DNA from: Thermomicrobium sp.
Lineage (GTDB): Bacteria; Chloroflexota; Chloroflexia; Thermomicrobiales; Thermomicrobiaceae
NCBI GenBank assembly: GCA_025060175.1
Contig: JANXBE010000004.1
Location: 1 to 61,639 of the forward strand
DNA: 61,639 bases
Reading direction: 5' to 3'
The notes beneath the pieces were generated by a model, which saw nothing but the letters and a program-made list of their open reading frames with translations, did not search any database and was not told the DNA's origin. Below, in pieces: positions 53,363-61,639 of this stretch. How positions within the stretch are numbered: the stretch's first letter is position 1; each line of letters opens with the position of its first letter. The position numbers were made by a program, and so were the translations under genes.

Positions 53363-53366
53363 GCAG

Positions 53367-53440
53367 CGGAAGCGACGGGATTCGAACCCGCGATCTCGGC
53401 CTTGACAGGGCCGCGTGTTAGGCCTCTACACCACGCCTCC
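53367..53440 (-). tRNA. tRNA-Asp (GTC)
   Basis: Minus strand: acceptor GGAGGCG/CGCTTCC (one G-U), D arm GTGTAGAGGCCTAACAC, anticodon loop CTGTCAA (anticodon GTC), T arm GCGGGTTCGAATCCCGT, discriminator G. 74 bases, no encoded CCA. Has its own promoter and terminator. Confidence 0.95.
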
Positions 53441-55825: not shown

Positions 55826-56806
55826 TCAGCGGCTCGCCTCGACCGGTGGCGTACCGTAGGTGTGGAAGGTCGCGACGGTCGCCAGTCCCCAGGCCTGACC
55901 GCGCTTGCGTTCCGCTTCGGTCCAGACGATGGGCTTCCAATCCGGCGCGAGCACGAGTCTCGCCCCGGGACACCCGATCTCGATCCGATGCCCGCCTGGC
56001 TCGATGAGGTACAAGAACACCGTTTGTTGGACGGCATGTTTGTGCGGACCGTACTCGATGCGATAGCCGAACTCGATGGCGATATCGGCAGCGCGCAACA
56101 CTTCTTCCCGGGTGTCGACGGCATAGCAGACGTGATGGAAGCGGCCGCGCGCTCCGGTTTGATCTTCAGTAATCGCGATCTCGTACCCCTTGTTGTTCGC
56201 AGTCACCCACGCACCCTTTTCTGACCCATCGTCGAAGATGATGCACTCGGTCAGTCGTAACCCGAGATGCTGTTGCAGGAACAAGCGCGTGGCTCGTACG
56301 TCGGCTGCGAACACGTTGATATGGTCGAGGCGTCGGACGTTGCAACCACGGGCGGGAAAGCGCGATGCTTGATTCTTCAGTGCAGGCTTCGTTTCCGGGG
56401 TCGGTCGATACCATTCGACATCCCACACCAGCTCGGCAACGTGCCCGTCCGGTGTCCGAAAGCGGTATGCTGGGCCGTGCCCGGCGTCGCCGTCGATCCA
56501 GCCCAAACCGAGTCCGGTGCGCTCGAGCATGTGCACGCGCCGTTGCAGGGCTTCCAATGAGCTGACTCGGTAGGCGAAGTGCTCCATGGCCGGAACAGGC
56601 CCAGCCGTCAACTTCAAGGTATGGTGCGCGTAATCGTCCCACCCTCGGAGGTAAACGGAGTTGCCCCGGCGCTCAGTGACCGTCATACCGAGGTACTCGA
56701 CGAAGAAGCGCTCGCTCTCGTCGAGCGTCGGCGTCAGGAGCTCCAGGTGTGCGAGATGGGCCATGTCGCAACTGGGTTCGCCCACATAAAGCGTCACGTC
56801 GTTCAT
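55826..56806 (-). CDS. Extradiol ring-cleavage dioxygenase, catechol 2,3-dioxygenase type
   Basis: 326 residues; two vicinal-oxygen-chelate (glyoxalase) domains. AHLELLTPTLDESERFFVEYLGM (N-terminal half); LDHINVFAADV (H162), RFHHVCYAVDTREEVLRAADI (H225), IEPGGHRIEIG (E276) give the iron 2-His-1-Glu triad with the spacing and neighbouring residues of metapyrocatechase XylE. It cleaves a catecholic ring next to the diol. The substrate is not predictable; gene context suggests protocatechuate, gallate or 3-O-methylgallate. Last gene of the minus-strand cluster. Confidence 0.88.
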   Translation of the reverse strand: MNDVTLYVGEPSCDMAHLAHLELLTPTLDESERFFVEYLGMTVTERRGNSVYLRGWDDYAHHTLKLTAGPVPAMEHFAYRVSSLEALQRRVHMLERTGLGLGWIDGDAGHGPAYRFRTPDGHVAELVWDVEWYRPTPETKPALKNQASRFPARGCNVRRLDHINVFAADVRATRLFLQQHLGLRLTECIIFDDGSEKGAWVTANNKGYEIAITEDQTGARGRFHHVCYAVDTREEVLRAADIAIEFGYRIEYGPHKHAVQQTVFLYLIEPGGHRIEIGCPGARLVLAPDWKPIVWTEAERKRGQAWGLATVATFHTYGTPPVEASR

Positions 56807-56844
56807 CGTTGACCTCCCCCGCGATTCACCCTACCACGACCCGC

Positions 56845-57516
56845 CTACGGTCCTTCCTGTCCTTCGACCAGCCTGCGAAGCCCATGCACGTCGTACGTCA
56901 GTGCTCCGGCGAGGAGTTCTCGGCGTAGGCGTGTTTCCCGTTCGGCGCGGGCACGTGCCTTTTCCAGGACGGTCGGAATGTCCGTGCGTGTGACGACGAC
57001 ACCCCCGTCATCGTCCAGGATCACGAGGTCGCCTGGCTCGATGCGCGTACCACCGACGACGACAGGGACATCGATTCCGCCAGGGCGTTCCTTCGTCGCC
57101 CCCCGAACTCGGATGAAGCGTGTCCAGATCGGCAGACCCATCGCTCGCAACTCGTCGACGTCGCGAACCGCTGCGTCCACGAGGAGCGCGGCGGCACCGC
57201 GCACCTGCGCTTGAATCGCGAGGAGTTCGCCGACCAGCGCGACGGGCTCAGGTTCCGGCATCGTGATGACCAGGACGCAGCCGGGAAAGACGCGCTCCAT
57301 GGCCGCATGGACCATCAGATTGTCGCCTTGTCCGCACAGCACCGTCAGGGCTGGCCCAGCAACCCTCTTCCCTGCGAGAAGCGGAATCAGTGGTATGTCG
57401 ATCAATCCTCGACGGCCGGAAGCCTCATAGACGGTCGCCACACCGAGTTCACTGAAGACGCGGCATGTGTCAGCGAGCGACTCGTCGACAGGAGGTCGTT
57501 CTGGTGCCGTGTCCAT
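56845..57516 (-). CDS. RraA/HMG-CHA aldolase family protein
   Basis: 223 residues. The RraA-like fold with GELLAIQAQVRGAAALLVDAAVRDVDELRAMGLPIWTRF contains the conserved G-E-L and R118-D119 of HMG/CHA aldolases (LigK, ProA, GalC), which split 4-carboxy-4-hydroxy-2-oxoadipate into pyruvate and oxaloacetate. In other contexts the family inhibits RNase E (RraA), but the active-site residues here support aldolase. It lies 38 bases upstream of the dioxygenase gene on the same strand. Confidence 0.82.
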   Translation of the reverse strand: MDTAPERPPVDESLADTCRVFSELGVATVYEASGRRGLIDIPLIPLLAGKRVAGPALTVLCGQGDNLMVHAAMERVFPGCVLVITMPEPEPVALVGELLAIQAQVRGAAALLVDAAVRDVDELRAMGLPIWTRFIRVRGATKERPGGIDVPVVVGGTRIEPGDLVILDDDGGVVVTRTDIPTVLEKARARAERETRLRRELLAGALTYDVHGLRRLVEGQEGP

Positions 57517-57535
57517 GGGACTCCTCCCAATCGGT

Positions 57536-58267
57536 TCAGCCGTGGGCCAACAATTCTCGGGTCACGATCGGTGTGACGCGTTGAAAGGCTTCGGCATAGC
57601 GAATGTCCTTGGCGCCCGAGATGCGGCGGGCGTGGTTCGCTCGTCGTTCGGCCAGCTCGGCGTAGTACCGCTGAAGATACTGTTGTGACGCCATGACCTG
57701 CATGGCAGCAAGCTTCTGCTCGTAGACCGGGGTGATGTCGACGAAGACGTTCGGTACGAAACCGCAGAGTTCCGGCTGGTGTGGCTCGAAATAGTAGAGC
57801 GGCGGCGGTTCGATCGTTTCGAAGGCACTCGCGACCCCCGCGCCTGCGGAGAGCAATCGGGCGCGTTGCACGGTGTCGTGCGCGACTGGGTGGTCAGGAT
57901 TGAAGGGATCGAGCGGGGTGTGGGTGATGATGGCATCCGGTCGGACGTCGCGGATCAGCTGTGCGAGCCGTTCCATCGCATCGCGATCGACTTCCAATGG
58001 ATAGTCTCCGAGATCGAAACAGAGGAAGCGGGCACCGAGTGTGGCGGCGGCGCGTTCCCCTTGTTCGTGGCGGATGGCCTTGACACGCTCGATCGTCTGT
58101 CCTGGTTCCTTCCAGAGTTCACCGGATTCGCCCCGCTCGCCATAGGAGAGTGCGACGACCGTGGCTTCGCCCCCCTTGGCGGTGACGAGAGCGATGACGC
58201 CGCCGGCACGCCAGACGAAGTCAGCGGCATGTGCGCCGATGACGAGAAGGCGTCGTACTTCGATCAT
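57536..58267 (-). CDS. PIG-L fold hydrolase (GalB-like 4-oxalomesaconate hydratase)
   Basis: 243 residues. The PIG-L/LmbE deacetylase fold normally starts with AHPDDE; here it is VIGAHAADFVWRAGG (H13, D16), the variant that I associate with GalB, the PIG-L-fold 4-oxalomesaconate hydratase of the Pseudomonas gallate pathway. FNPDHPVAHDTVQRARLL gives the third ligand. Overlaps the amidohydrolase-like gene by ATGA. It could still be a deacetylase of unknown substrate. Confidence 0.75.
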   Translation of the reverse strand: MIEVRRLLVIGAHAADFVWRAGGVIALVTAKGGEATVVALSYGERGESGELWKEPGQTIERVKAIRHEQGERAAATLGARFLCFDLGDYPLEVDRDAMERLAQLIRDVRPDAIITHTPLDPFNPDHPVAHDTVQRARLLSAGAGVASAFETIEPPPLYYFEPHQPELCGFVPNVFVDITPVYEQKLAAMQVMASQQYLQRYYAELAERRANHARRISGAKDIRYAEAFQRVTPIVTRELLAHG

Positions 58268-59193
58268 CGTTCCGTCCCTCCGGCCAGTCGTACGGTATTC
58301 CGAACGGCCATGGTGTGGACTTCATCCTCGGTGAAACCAGCCTCCAATAAGCGATCGGCGAACAGCGCCAAGCCGTCTTCGACCGGTGGGTTATCGGGCT
58401 GACCGAGGTCGGTGCTGAGCACGACACGCTCCGGGCTGACGGCGCGGATATGCTCAACGGCGGTCTTCCAATCCACCTTCCCGGTATACAAGGGTGTGAA
58501 GCAATGCTCGAGATAGGCGCCGAGTTCGGCCAGGGCGATCTGATCCACGGCCGAGAGAGACTGCGAGGGAAAATCGGGGTGGGTCACGACGATGTGACGC
58601 ACTCCCTCGTCACGTGCCGCGTGGACGACGGCGAAGATTTCGTCTCGTCCAAGGTGGCCGGTCGCCAAGACGAGGTCATGCCGAGCGATCACGCGCAGAA
58701 CGGCCCGTAGTTCCGGGACCACAGTCCCATCGCTGTCGAGTACGTGGACCGGTGGCACTTCGAATCCGTCCCGGCGCATCTCCTCCTGCAGGCGCGCCCA
58801 GTACGGAAGCTTTCCGCCGGTGGGAGCGTGCTGCAAATGGCGCCGTTCGTTGGCGGCATCGACGGTCGGTAGCCAAACGATACGCGCTCCCTCGCGCGCA
58901 GCGATTTCCACGGCGAGCGGATTCAGTCCGCCCACGGCGCGGTTCAGCGTGATCGAACCGAGTACGGTGACGCCGGGAACGGCCGTTCGCACGATCGCGG
59001 CCCGCTCGGCCGTCGGAACGTAGTGGGACTTGATGACGTATCCGGCAAGCCCGAGTTCCCGGAACCGCTGTGCGAGGGCGATGTCATCGATGCGACGAGG
59101 CATGACGTCGGGGCCGGAGTGGACGTGGAGATCGAAAGCGCCGCGCACCACATCCCGAGCACGTGACGACGGAACGGGGTGAACACTCGTCAT
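58264..59193 (-). CDS. Amidohydrolase-like protein (DUF6282-type)
   Basis: 309 residues from ATG 59193 (AAGG nine bases upstream; the open frame to 59463 overlaps the neighbour's 3' end). FDLHVHSGPDV (H23, H25) is the first metal motif of amidohydrolases; SHYVPTAERAAIV, LGSITLNRAVGGLNPLAVE, IVWLPTVDAANERRH and HIVVTHPDFPSQSLS follow. The family is usually labelled an uncharacterised amidohydrolase-like domain. In a ring-cleavage cluster it may act as a lactone or pyrone hydrolase like LigI, which belongs to the same superfamily. ATGA overlap with the GalB-like gene. Confidence 0.75.
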   Translation of the reverse strand: MTSVHPVPSSRARDVVRGAFDLHVHSGPDVMPRRIDDIALAQRFRELGLAGYVIKSHYVPTAERAAIVRTAVPGVTVLGSITLNRAVGGLNPLAVEIAAREGARIVWLPTVDAANERRHLQHAPTGGKLPYWARLQEEMRRDGFEVPPVHVLDSDGTVVPELRAVLRVIARHDLVLATGHLGRDEIFAVVHAARDEGVRHIVVTHPDFPSQSLSAVDQIALAELGAYLEHCFTPLYTGKVDWKTAVEHIRAVSPERVVLSTDLGQPDNPPVEDGLALFADRLLEAGFTEDEVHTMAVRNTVRLAGGTER

Positions 59194-59331
59194 CAGCTGT
59201 GCCTTTCGCTCGCACGAGTTTGACCTAGGCTCCGGTCGGCGATCGTCACGGTGTAGGCGCACACGGGAAGACCGGAGTCGTCGGCAGCAATTGTAGCACG
59301 GTGCCACGGCAGAATTTACCTCTGAAGGAAG

Positions 59332-59374
59332 CGCGAACCGCCCTGAGGCTTTTCCGGTCTCAGGGCGGTTCGCG
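59332..59374 (-). terminator. Strong hairpin after the substrate-binding lipoprotein gene
   Basis: CGCGAACCGCCCTGAG (59332-59347) and CTCAGGGCGGTTCGCG (59359-59374) form a perfect 16-bp stem with an 11-base loop, 10 bases after the stop of the minus-strand gene at 59384. No clear U tract follows. It separates the lipoprotein gene from the downstream catabolic genes, so the operon may be split or attenuated here. Confidence 0.75.
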
Positions 59375-59383
59375 AGGCGCAGC

Positions 59384-60538
59384 TCAGAGTTGCTTCGCAG
59401 CGTTCTGGACGAACGTGAAGTCCACGAGTTGGTCCACGGGAACGGTCTGCTGAATCTTGCCACGGTCTTTCCAGAGCTGTTGCGCTTCGGTCAGGCGGCT
59501 CACGTCGAAGGTACCGTCTTCAGAAATACCTGGCCACGTCATCTGCTCATACAACTTGTCGTCCTTGAGCGGTGTCCGGTTCTTCAGGATTTGCACGACT
59601 TCGGCACGAGTAGATGGATCTTTCAGGGCACGCAAGTAATACCTGGCTCCTTTGAGGTAACCAGCGAGGAACGCTTCGAGCAAGGGACGATCGTTGAGCA
59701 TCGGCGGACCGACGACGATCGCGGAGATGGGGTAGTTGTCGCCGACGATCTCGATGATCTGGTCTCCCGCCACGATCGGTACAGCAGCGCCGAGCTGTTT
59801 CGTCGCGATCGTGGCATAGGGCTCCACGAGTTCGGCAGCTTCCACCGCACCGTTCTGCAGCGCGGTCGGCATGTCGGGAAGACGGATCAGTTGCATCTTG
59901 ACATCGTCCAGCGTAAGTCCGCCCGATGCCAAGACTTTCTTCAATTCGAGAAGGTCGATCCCGGCGTCGCTCGGCATCGCCAACGTGCGTCCGCGAAGGT
60001 CAGCGACCGAGCGTACTCCCTGGTCGTAAAGTTGCTTGGTCACCGCGTAGGCGTGGTAGACATTACCCCGTCGGAGTGCTCCTTCGCCGGCGACGATCGT
60101 CACCTCGATCCCCTGGTTCCGAGCATTGACGAGGGCCGCTTGGATCGCGCCGCTGAACAGATCGAGCTGGCCAACGGCGACCAGAGGAATCACCTCGCCA
60201 GGGGTTCCTTGTGTCGTGACGAGTTCGACATCGAGCCCGACCTCCTTGAAGAATCCCTTCTCGACTGCGATGAAGTTCCCCGCCTCTTCCGTCGCGAGAG
60301 CAACGCGCATCTTGCGTTTGCGCGCTTGGGCGACTGTCGGGGTCGCAGGCGGTTTGGGCGTCGGCGTCGGGGTTGCTGCAGCGGTGGGCGTCGCGTTGGT
60401 CGCTGCAGCTGGTGTCGGGGTGACTGGCTGGGGGGTCGGTGTCGTCTGCTGGCTACCGCCACAGCCGGCAAGCAAGGCACTGGCCGTCACCCCGGCAAGC
60501 GTCACGAGTACCGTCCGCCGATTGACTTTCGAGCGCAC
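59384..60538 (-). CDS. ABC transporter substrate-binding lipoprotein (NMT1/THI5-like)
   Basis: 384 residues from GTG 60538 (GAGGGGGTGAAC upstream; the frame is open to 60631). NRRTVLV is Tat-like, and LLAGC (C26) is a lipobox. A Thr/Pro-rich linker spans about 32-80. The binding domain (from about 90) shows MRVALATEEAGNFIAVEKGFFKEVGLDVELVTTQG, VGQLDLFSGAIQAALVNARNQGIEVTIVAGEGA and FPDMPTALQNGAVEAAELVEPYA-like sequence, as in sulfonate/nitrate/thiamine precursor-binding proteins. No permease or ATPase gene is in the window. Likely imports an aromatic or sulfonate substrate. Confidence 0.85.
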   Translation of the reverse strand: MRSKVNRRTVLVTLAGVTASALLAGCGGSQQTTPTPQPVTPTPAAATNATPTAAATPTPTPKPPATPTVAQARKRKMRVALATEEAGNFIAVEKGFFKEVGLDVELVTTQGTPGEVIPLVAVGQLDLFSGAIQAALVNARNQGIEVTIVAGEGALRRGNVYHAYAVTKQLYDQGVRSVADLRGRTLAMPSDAGIDLLELKKVLASGGLTLDDVKMQLIRLPDMPTALQNGAVEAAELVEPYATIATKQLGAAVPIVAGDQIIEIVGDNYPISAIVVGPPMLNDRPLLEAFLAGYLKGARYYLRALKDPSTRAEVVQILKNRTPLKDDKLYEQMTWPGISEDGTFDVSRLTEAQQLWKDRGKIQQTVPVDQLVDFTFVQNAAKQL

Positions 60539-60800
60539 GCGTTCACCCCCTCGTGCATTCGCCTCGGACAGAGCGCACGACGACTCATGCGGTCGGAACA
60601 AAGCATCCGTTCGAGTCGTCCTCCGCACCAAGTGCTGGGAACTACCCTGTGATCACGACCGGATGGGCGTGTGCTCTGATCATATGCTTTCTCGGCGATT
60701 TGATTGTTCGAACTCTGCCCCACCTCCCTCCGAGCGGCGGGAGCAATTCGCACGCACGTCTGGTTCACAGAATCTTCTCGATTCTATAGAGGTGCTATGG

Positions 60801-60902
60801 AGTATAGGGTGTCGTGAGAGTCTTCAAATGTCCAGATAATCGGAACACGGAACATATCGCGAGATTTATCACTATCATTTTCATGTCTGCAGGGTTCGTC
60901 AA
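60801..60902 (-). promoter_or_regulatory. Two candidate promoters reading toward the lipoprotein gene
   Basis: Minus strand: (a) TTGACG (60902-60897), 17-base spacer, AATGAT (60879-60874); (b) TTGAAG (60827-60822), 15-base spacer, TATACT (60806-60801). Either would give a long leader of about 250-330 bases to GTG 60538. Motif match only; (a) has better spacing, (b) a better -10. Confidence 0.4.
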
Positions 60903-61130
60903 GGCTTCAGTGTCACCCGATCACCGAGGGCGTAGCGTCCCACCCCGGATCCGTGCGAGTCGAACGATCATCGTCGGTCGGTCACACGCATGTCGGGTCG
61001 CTCGGGACCACTGCTGAGCTGTTCCCCTGAAGTGGACGCGGGTGCAAACCATCGGACGACGCTCGTGGTCGGATCAGCGGGGACCAGCGTCGATCCACGC
61101 GACGCGGAGCAGTACCCGTGCGGTCATACG

Positions 61131-61167
61131 ACGGAACCCGGACCGAGCGCGACGGTCCGGGTTCCGT
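61131..61167 (-). terminator. Hairpin after the O-demethylase-like gene
   Basis: ACGGAACCCGGACC (61131-61144) pairs perfectly with GGTCCGGGTTCCGT (61154-61167), loop of nine. It is 33 bases past the stop at 61200 on the minus strand. No U tract. Confidence 0.65.
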
Positions 61168-61199
61168 CCGCTGTCGCTCCTCTCCAGGTTCTTCGCCCC

Positions 61200-61639
61200 T
61201 CAACCAGCGCGGCGAGCGCGCGCCACCTGCTCGCGGTAGCGGCGAGCGGGCTCGGCGTAGGGGGCGGGGCCGACCGTCACCCACACCTCGGTCTGGACAT
61301 GCCGTTCCACCGACGGCTTGCGCGAGCCTCCATTCGGCTCACCCCAGACGACCCGCAGGCGTGTTCCCTCCTTGGCATACGCTTCGTCGACCGTGGCGAG
61401 GGAGAGCACGCGCTCCTCGTTGGAGCTGAAGCCGGTCCACATGGCGAAGCCGACGACCTGACCGGCATCGTTGAGGACGGCGTCGTACATCCAGGTCGCG
61501 TACTGGGCCAGCGGCAGGTCGAAGTACTTGAAGCGCTGCCCCTTGGGACGGGTGAAGAGGCTCCCCGTCACCCGTGCCGCCTCCTCCGGATCCCAGACCA
61601 GCGTCACCTTCTTGCGGTGCGGCTGGTCCTTGAGCCGCT
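61200..61639 (-). CDS. C-terminal part of a LigM/DesA-like aromatic O-demethylase (GcvT family)
   Basis: The frame runs off the window; 146 codons remain. Ahead of GTG 61607 the codons RLKDQPHRKK continue the protein, so that is not the start. The fragment has FKYFDLPLAQYATWMYDAVL, GFAMWTGFSSNEERVLSLATVD, GTRLRVVWGEPNGG and RKPSVERHVQTEVWVTVGPAPYA, which I recognise as the C-terminal region of the tetrahydrofolate-dependent O-demethylases LigM and DesA (GcvT/aminomethyltransferase family). They move the methyl of vanillate, 3-O-methylgallate or syringate to THF. Its stop lies 661 bases upstream of the transport lipoprotein gene. Confidence 0.75.
   Translation of the reverse strand, partial: RLKDQPHRKKVTLVWDPEEAARVTGSLFTRPKGQRFKYFDLPLAQYATWMYDAVLNDAGQVVGFAMWTGFSSNEERVLSLATVDEAYAKEGTRLRVVWGEPNGGSRKPSVERHVQTEVWVTVGPAPYAEPARRYREQVARARRAG

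Follow-up and report, generated by a model that had tools for sequence, protein, structure and literature searches.

A Thermomicrobium gene cluster proposed to act on methoxylated plant aromatic acids, and a clade of type I ring-cleavage dioxygenases with tyrosine at the position of the catalytic histidine

This study concerns a cluster of six genes at one end of contig JANXBE010000004.1 from a Thermomicrobium assembly (711 kb, 54% complete); the window is this entire contig (C15), 61,639 bases long. Judged from sequence comparison, the locus on balance probably encodes some of the enzymes of a pathway that would degrade methoxylated aromatic acids of plant origin via gallate-type ring cleavage. 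More tentatively, with a little less than an even chance, we propose that its dioxygenase represents a clade that is a non-orthologous replacement of the LigB-type gallate dioxygenase and would use a Tyr, together with a Lys close by, instead of the usual His, and that thermophiles pair this clade with DUF6282, which would be a new enzyme of the 4-oxalomesaconate (OMA) branch. The original prediction had placed six same-strand genes here, and an open-reading-frame check of the window confirmed all six as open frames of the minus strand with the same coordinates:

61200–61637, minus strand: LigM/DesA-type tetrahydrofolate (THF)-dependent O-demethylase, C-terminal 145 amino acids, cut by the contig end (NF047885, NF047633)
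59384–60538 (start approximate), minus strand: NMT1/SsuA-type substrate-binding lipoprotein (PF09084, E = 3.6e-19; TIGR01728, E = 8e-16)
58264–59193, minus strand: DUF6282 protein, predicted amidohydrolase-superfamily barrel (PF19799, 235 bits)
57536–58267, minus strand: PIG-L family protein, predicted GalB-like hydratase of OMA/2-keto-4-carboxy-3-hexenedioate (KCH) (5CGZ, E = 8.2e-64)
56845–57516, minus strand: RraA-like protein, similar to 4-carboxy-4-hydroxy-2-oxoadipate (CHA) aldolases (PRK09262, 3NOJ)
55826–56806, minus strand: type I (vicinal oxygen chelate, VOC) ring-cleavage dioxygenase, proposed to be gallate-type (TIGR03211, 309 bits; 9WGJ, E = 1.3e-108)

In the proposed route, the THF-dependent O-demethylase would remove a methyl group from a syringate-, 3-O-methylgallate- or vanillate-type acid, and the VOC dioxygenase would open a trihydroxybenzoate (gallate, possibly 3-O-methylgallate) to OMA or its lactone or ester relatives. 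DUF6282 may handle a side form, either the lactone 2-pyrone-4,6-dicarboxylate (PDC) or an isomer of OMA; hydration to CHA would fall to the PIG-L protein, and the RraA-like aldolase would split CHA into pyruvate and oxaloacetate. As the lower enzymes appear specific for OMA and CHA, the entry point would be OMA. This would leave gallate and 3-O-methylgallate as candidate ring substrates, or protocatechuate if one more oxidation and the hydrolysis of a lactone took place. Gallate or 3-O-methylgallate is the favoured substrate, with protocatechuate as the main rival.

Gene families and conserved linkage

The assignment of the lower pathway is carried by the PIG-L and RraA-like proteins. The former matched GalB (5CGZ) over 234 amino acids, with the next PDB match at only 1.4e-9, and is proposed, in line with the original prediction, to be a GalB-type OMA/KCH hydratase. 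The latter passed the CHA-aldolase model PRK09262 (196.6 bits, cut-off 179), did not reach the stricter LigK_PcmE model TIGR02798 (180 vs. 304.5), and matched the structure 3NOJ (E = 2.8e-47) far better than RraA proteins; the cut-off and this match rule out the RNase E inhibitor RraA, the alternative that could have refuted the predicted aldolase. The catalytic motif of 4-hydroxy-4-methyl-2-oxoglutarate (HMG)/CHA aldolases is acid-X20-Arg-Asp. R118 and D119 are kept in the window protein, and the upstream acid, 21 residues before R118, is Glu replacing Asp; among the aligned homologues, 52 have Glu here and 29 have Asp. Arg123 of HMG/CHA aldolase is known to be essential (PMC5065237).

Concerning the demethylase, the edge fragment matched the C-terminal part of the LigM and DesA models (NF047885, E = 1.4e-40; NF047633, E = 2e-39), as had been predicted, and it is 87–92% identical to full-length or longer orthologues. 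The full-length orthologue in genome G017 (L017:10855–12252, 466 amino acids) matched the LigM structures 5TL4/5X1I at E = 5e-157 and GcvT at only about 1e-14, and the reading of the fragment as GcvT or dimethylglycine dehydrogenase was rejected on this basis. L017 passed the LigM equivalog model (588.6, cut-off 580); it scored higher, yet below the cut-off, with the DesA model (639.9 vs. 800). The catalytic Tyr region of the window enzyme lies beyond the contig end, and the aligned Tyr, which we take to be Tyr247 of LigM, is present in L017. The window genome has a second, full-length DesA/LigM-like demethylase on contig C3 (L014, 438–3741), adjoining a Tannase-family gene (PF07519, 373 bits), and this pairing counts for a gallate-type route.

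The predicted substrate-binding lipoprotein was recovered with both profiles listed above; it has the lipobox LLAGC and an alternative TTG start at 60631, and no permease or ATPase gene adjoins it in the window cluster. In Thermalbibacter, the demethylase and DUF6282 are separated by the genes of a branched-chain-type ABC transporter.

Five further Thermomicrobium genomes show the six-gene order, with the demethylase or binding protein cut or lost at contig ends in some, and the demethylase, DUF6282, PIG-L, RraA-like and dioxygenase genes co-occur in two further genera of the family. The carriers include Thermomicrobium sp. CFH 73360 and the metagenome-assembled genome SKW109, with Thermalbibacter longus representing the next genus. 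Since the order recurs within Thermomicrobium and the gene set in two other genera, the cluster is not a chance assembly. A ligH-type partner had been expected upstream of the demethylase, and in G017 a formate–THF ligase (719, cut-off 652) indeed lies immediately upstream of it. A scan of 84,980 genomes for DUF6282 yielded 80 loci, in which a PIG-L gene was nearby in 51/80, an aldolase in 50/80, a dioxygenase of the window kind in 25/80 and a demethylase in 9/80. One Armatimonadota locus holds DUF6282, PIG-L, aldolase, dioxygenase, demethylase, methylenetetrahydrofolate reductase (MetF) and formate–THF ligase together. The linkage of the demethylase to the cluster in several genera, with formate–THF ligase or MetF as partners, counts for a methoxy-aromatic route. 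The joint pathway of the original prediction is thus supported at the level of families and pathway, while its substrate and the step of DUF6282 are what we infer. In another Thermomicrobium genome that is otherwise near-complete (G019), a demethylase homologue carries several in-frame stops (C14:51975–53365, L122), and the genome lacks both DUF6282 and the gal-clade dioxygenase, an apparent loss of the route.

A dioxygenase clade with tyrosine at the histidine position

The ring-cleavage enzyme had been predicted to be a type I VOC dioxygenase instead of a LigAB-type enzyme, and this assignment stands: Pfam finds glyoxalase/VOC-type domains only, and the LigB domain (PF02900) is absent. Clade relatives occur in gal-type operons. 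The Fe ligands H162, H225 and E276 align with H155, H214 and E267 of homoprotocatechuate 2,3-dioxygenase (HPCD) and are invariant in the aligned dioxygenases. By contrast, the second-sphere catalytic His (His200 of HPCD) is Tyr208 in the window enzyme, with Lys206 two residues before it.

The operon context of the relatives was obtained by a tblastn search of a plasmid collection with the dioxygenase, which is independent of retrieval through DUF6282, and by reading the neighbourhoods of the regions opened. All 11 opened stretches at 51–66% identity (Thermus oshimai, Methylobacterium, Roseomonas, three Agrobacterium, two Rhizobium, Thioclava, Roseibium and Pantoea) carry a CHA aldolase, and most also carry a GalB-like PIG-L gene and an OMA tautomerase. 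The relatives at 51–55% lie in GalB/CHA-aldolase/OMA-tautomerase operons on plasmids of Agrobacterium, Rhizobium, Thioclava, Roseibium and Pantoea. Three stretches at 40–50% (two Thermus thermophilus, one Rhodococcus) have neither CHA aldolase nor GalB nor OMA tautomerase, and those of T. thermophilus carry catechol lower-pathway genes. On pAt of Agrobacterium tumefaciens 186 (L155, 9270–14641), genes for PIG-L, VOC, CHA aldolase, OMA tautomerase and tannase are consecutive; this strain is a walnut isolate, and its host plant is tannin-rich. In the gal-type operons the VOC gene stands where one would expect a LigB-type gallate dioxygenase, and it is their sole ring-cleavage candidate; Roseomonas is the exception, having a LigB-type gene as well.

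A maximum-likelihood tree of 63 dioxygenase rows, partly biased in its sampling because the gal rows were mostly retrieved via DUF6282, grouped 34 of the 34 gal-context rows into one part that contains no catechol-context row. Every one of the 15 catechol-context rows in the catechol-2,3-dioxygenase-like set fell into a separate clade (support 99/99). Support for joining the gal side is lower (82/61), which makes its monophyly probable, short of proof. At the His200-aligned position, Tyr occupies 28 of the 38 gal-side rows, including the window enzyme and the structure 9WGJ, always with Lys two residues before; His is kept in ten gal-side rows from Solirubrobacterales and other actinobacteria and in all 18 catechol-type rows. 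The Solirubrobacterales enzymes are a separate subclade. The clade ranges over Thermomicrobiota, Deinococcota, Armatimonadota, Actinomycetota and Proteobacteria.

When His200 of HPCD is replaced, the enzyme cleaves some substrates in the intradiol manner. We hypothesize that the loss of this His may suit gallate, since a vicinal triol is cut between two hydroxylated carbons. The best structural homologue of the window enzyme, 9WGJ, is labelled Catechol 1,2-dioxygenase; it carries the Tyr and Lys signature and is probably a member of the gal clade (placement support weak, 90/76), and our literature search found no publication on it, although its depositors may already know the substrate. In AromaDeg, gallate dioxygenases belong to the LigB superfamily, and neither gallate nor protocatechuate appears among the VOC substrates (PMC4250580). 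In the open-access literature, we found no type I gallate dioxygenase, and our literature search gave no description of the His-to-Tyr clade in gal operons.

DUF6282 and the ring substrate

The protein originally described as amidohydrolase-like is DUF6282 (PF19799, 235.1 against a gathering score of 26.8), the sole family found in it at E ≤ 0.01; Amidohydro_2 (PF04909), the family of LigI-type PDC hydrolases, gave no match, and no sequence relative is present in the PDB. Its AlphaFold2 model (predicted local distance difference test 92.6) has an amidohydrolase-type barrel, and VIA-align gave TatD, phosphotriesterase-homology/-like and lactonase folds as neighbours (Z about 20, root-mean-square deviation about 3.1–3.3 Å over about 240–245 residues). 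The Foldseek list includes the putative PDC hydrolase 2FFI, a likeness of the barrel fold only, and the 50 VIA-align matches listed include no LigI-like PDC hydrolase, which is uninformative either way. The conserved residues H23, H25, K55, H180, H205 and D262 could bind metal.

Operons with an OMA tautomerase are mostly without DUF6282, a near-exclusive distribution suggesting that DUF6282 plainly replaces the tautomerase; however, L082, L032 and L050 carry both, and we rejected this idea. The count itself is biased, as most loci were retrieved via DUF6282. In L082, the clade dioxygenase shares the locus with an OMA tautomerase (474, cut-off 440) and LigM (884, cut-off 580). A lactonase acting on PDC and an isomerase acting on OMA are both possible functions of DUF6282, and we modestly prefer the lactonase. 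No paper on DUF6282 was found in our literature search.

Several points weigh against a gallate-type route for methoxylated acids. The demethylase family is firm and its substrate is not, because L017 passes the LigM cut-off while scoring higher, below cut-off, with DesA. One step has no assigned enzyme in the family, since the GalD-type OMA tautomerase (NF033377) is absent from 21 of its 21 genomes, to be read with the incompleteness of the window genome (54% complete). In the Sphaerobacter genomes G007 and G009, demethylase and dioxygenase are present but the downstream genes do not adjoin them, and the dioxygenase of Thermus oshimai adjoins a gene annotated as 4-hydroxybenzoate 3-monooxygenase, a pointer to protocatechuate in that species. 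Finally, the Tyr-clade enzymes lack the catalytic His normally used by extradiol enzymes; the equivalent His is essential in DesB and BphC and is used by both type I and type II enzymes (PMC3962378).

Protocatechuate 4,5-cleavage is accordingly the first alternative to be weighed, and we consider it unlikely. Vanillate would be demethylated to protocatechuate, the VOC enzyme would produce 4-carboxy-2-hydroxymuconate-6-semialdehyde (CHMS), an unlinked dehydrogenase would convert this to PDC, and DUF6282 would be the PDC lactonase giving OMA. The LigM score of L017, the fold resemblance of DUF6282 to PDC hydrolases such as 2FFI, and the T. oshimai context, where an aldehyde dehydrogenase and a DUF1932 dehydrogenase accompany the monooxygenase, agree with such a route. 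However, the Thermomicrobium cluster contains no dehydrogenase gene for CHMS, and the proteobacterial OMA-tautomerase/tannase clusters have no annotated DUF6282 or LigI in the stretches read, which gallate fits better. A DUF1932/6PGDH-like dehydrogenase is repeatedly linked to the cluster across phyla (L029, 4458–5240; L155, 3432–4319; L154, 13864–14631; and others); seven Thermomicrobium genomes lack a close homologue of it, a further point against protocatechuate. With the gene of actinobacterial loci taken as the CHMS dehydrogenase, this absence had seemed to prove gallate; we dropped it as proof because the same dehydrogenase sits in gallate-like proteobacterial clusters.

Direct cleavage of 3-O-methylgallate, with syringate demethylated once, the VOC enzyme forming 4-carboxy-2-hydroxy-6-methoxy-6-oxohexa-2,4-dienoate (CHMOD) or PDC, and DUF6282 acting as an esterase or lactonase to give OMA, is improbable in our estimate. 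The chemistry has precedents: Pseudomonas NGC7 converts 3-O-methylgallate to CHMOD, followed by hydrolysis by MgaC, the SnoaL-type MgaD and GalD/GalB/GalC (PMC12314914), and GalA turns 3-O-methylgallate into CHMOD, from which PDC forms non-enzymatically, so that a PDC-handling enzyme would be useful (PMC12481942). SnoaL_4 proteins adjoin the dioxygenase in two Solirubrobacterales loci (L035, 13255–13929; L053, 13252–13875), but these dioxygenases retain His and belong to the separate subclade, and DUF6282 occurs in many loci with no dioxygenase or demethylase nearby.

An ordinary catechol 2,3-dioxygenase among genes of different pathways is disfavoured as very improbable: although the window enzyme scores just below the TIGR03211 cut-off (309 vs. 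320.2) and databases annotate its relatives as catechol 2,3-dioxygenases, gal-context and catechol-context enzymes separate fully in the tree, the catalytic His is replaced by Tyr, linkage to GalB and CHA aldolase recurs in several phyla, and the same genome has separate catechol-type copies with HpaB and lower-pathway genes. One such copy, on contig C20 (L149, 4239–9770), belongs to an ordinary meta pathway.

Known systems, transcription units and contig end

The enzyme families are all known already, as is the lower pathway. Like the gal pathway of Pseudomonas putida (GalA, GalB, GalC, GalD), the gallate-type route proposed here would run from OMA through CHA to pyruvate and oxaloacetate with a GalB-like PIG-L protein and a CHA aldolase; it differs in having a VOC enzyme instead of the LigB-type GalA, in the presence of DUF6282 and in the absence of the OMA tautomerase from the family. 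The syringate/vanillate system of Sphingobium SYK-6 (DesA, LigM, DesB, LigAB, DesZ, LigJ, LigK, LigH) shares the THF-dependent demethylase and the CHA aldolase, and also the formate–THF ligase beside the demethylase, as seen in the relative of the window genome. Its hydratase is LigJ, whereas ours is GalB-like, and its ring cleavage relies on three type II enzymes (PMC3962378) instead of a type I VOC enzyme. The linear syringate pathway of Pseudomonas NGC7 (VanA1B1, MgaAB, MgaC, MgaD with a SnoaL-like domain, GalDBC; PMC12314914) follows the same lower-pathway logic via GalB and GalC, but uses a Rieske demethylase and MgaAB where the window has a THF-dependent demethylase and a VOC dioxygenase. 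The gal-type operons on Agrobacterium, Rhizobium, Pantoea and Thioclava plasmids, annotated with a 'VOC family protein' or 'catechol 2,3-dioxygenase', share the dioxygenase clade, GalB and CHA aldolase; unlike the window cluster, they include an OMA tautomerase and a LysR regulator, and neither DUF6282 nor a demethylase lies near them. Our literature search found no description of a THF-dependent demethylase, VOC dioxygenase, DUF6282 and GalB/CHA aldolase together in thermophiles.

If these proposals are true, many genes that now carry the label catechol 2,3-dioxygenase or VOC protein encode enzymes for opening gallate-type rings, and the pathway annotation of plant-associated plasmids and hot-spring bacteria needs correcting. 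The clade would also provide a test case for an extradiol enzyme working without the catalytic His, and DUF6282 would gain its first candidate role. Furthermore, the cluster would represent a heat-stable, tetrahydrofolate-based route for syringyl and tannin acids; according to PMC8027834, an aerobic and thermotolerant pathway for S-lignin had not been worked out prior to that study.

Concerning transcription, two terminator-like hairpins were found between the genes:

61130–61168, minus strand: hairpin 3' of the demethylase, 16-bp arms, no T-run (z = -4.2)
59333–59373, minus strand: hairpin 3' of the binding-protein gene, 15-bp arms, no T-run (z = -3.5)

A strict terminator scan flagged neither. 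Downstream, the reading frames of DUF6282 and PIG-L share 4 bp, the gaps from PIG-L to the RraA-like gene and from there to the dioxygenase are 19 bp and 38 bp, and Shine-Dalgarno-like GGAGG/GGGGGAGG occurs at the PIG-L/RraA-like/dioxygenase junctions. Because of the strong hairpins after the demethylase and the binding protein and the short junctions thereafter, the core operon probably consists of the last four genes (DUF6282, PIG-L, aldolase and dioxygenase), with the demethylase and binding protein as neighbouring units. A single six-gene operon is improbable in view of the hairpins and junction spacing, and two or three transcription units are probable.

The contig end is read most simply as an assembly break in a repeated demethylase gene, since near-identical copies exist and breaks recur in other genomes. 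G017 holds two copies that are 95% identical, and contigs also break at the demethylase in G014 and G016. In the window genome, the window carries the C-terminal part of one copy, and contig C17 ends in the N-terminal part of the other (C17:40958–41284, L141), near uvrC; the second copy of G017 is likewise near uvrC.

On another contig of G017 (C11, L146), two demethylases lie with a PIG-L protein (60% identical), an HpcH/HpaI aldolase, an HpaD-like VOC protein, an aldehyde dehydrogenase, a fumarylacetoacetate (FAA) hydrolase and a dihydrodipicolinate synthase (DHDPS)-like protein; this cluster is probably a homoprotocatechuate-type route for methoxylated substrates. On the downstream side of the window cluster, a tRNA-Asp gene occupies 53366–53440, and the long antisense reading frames there are spurious.

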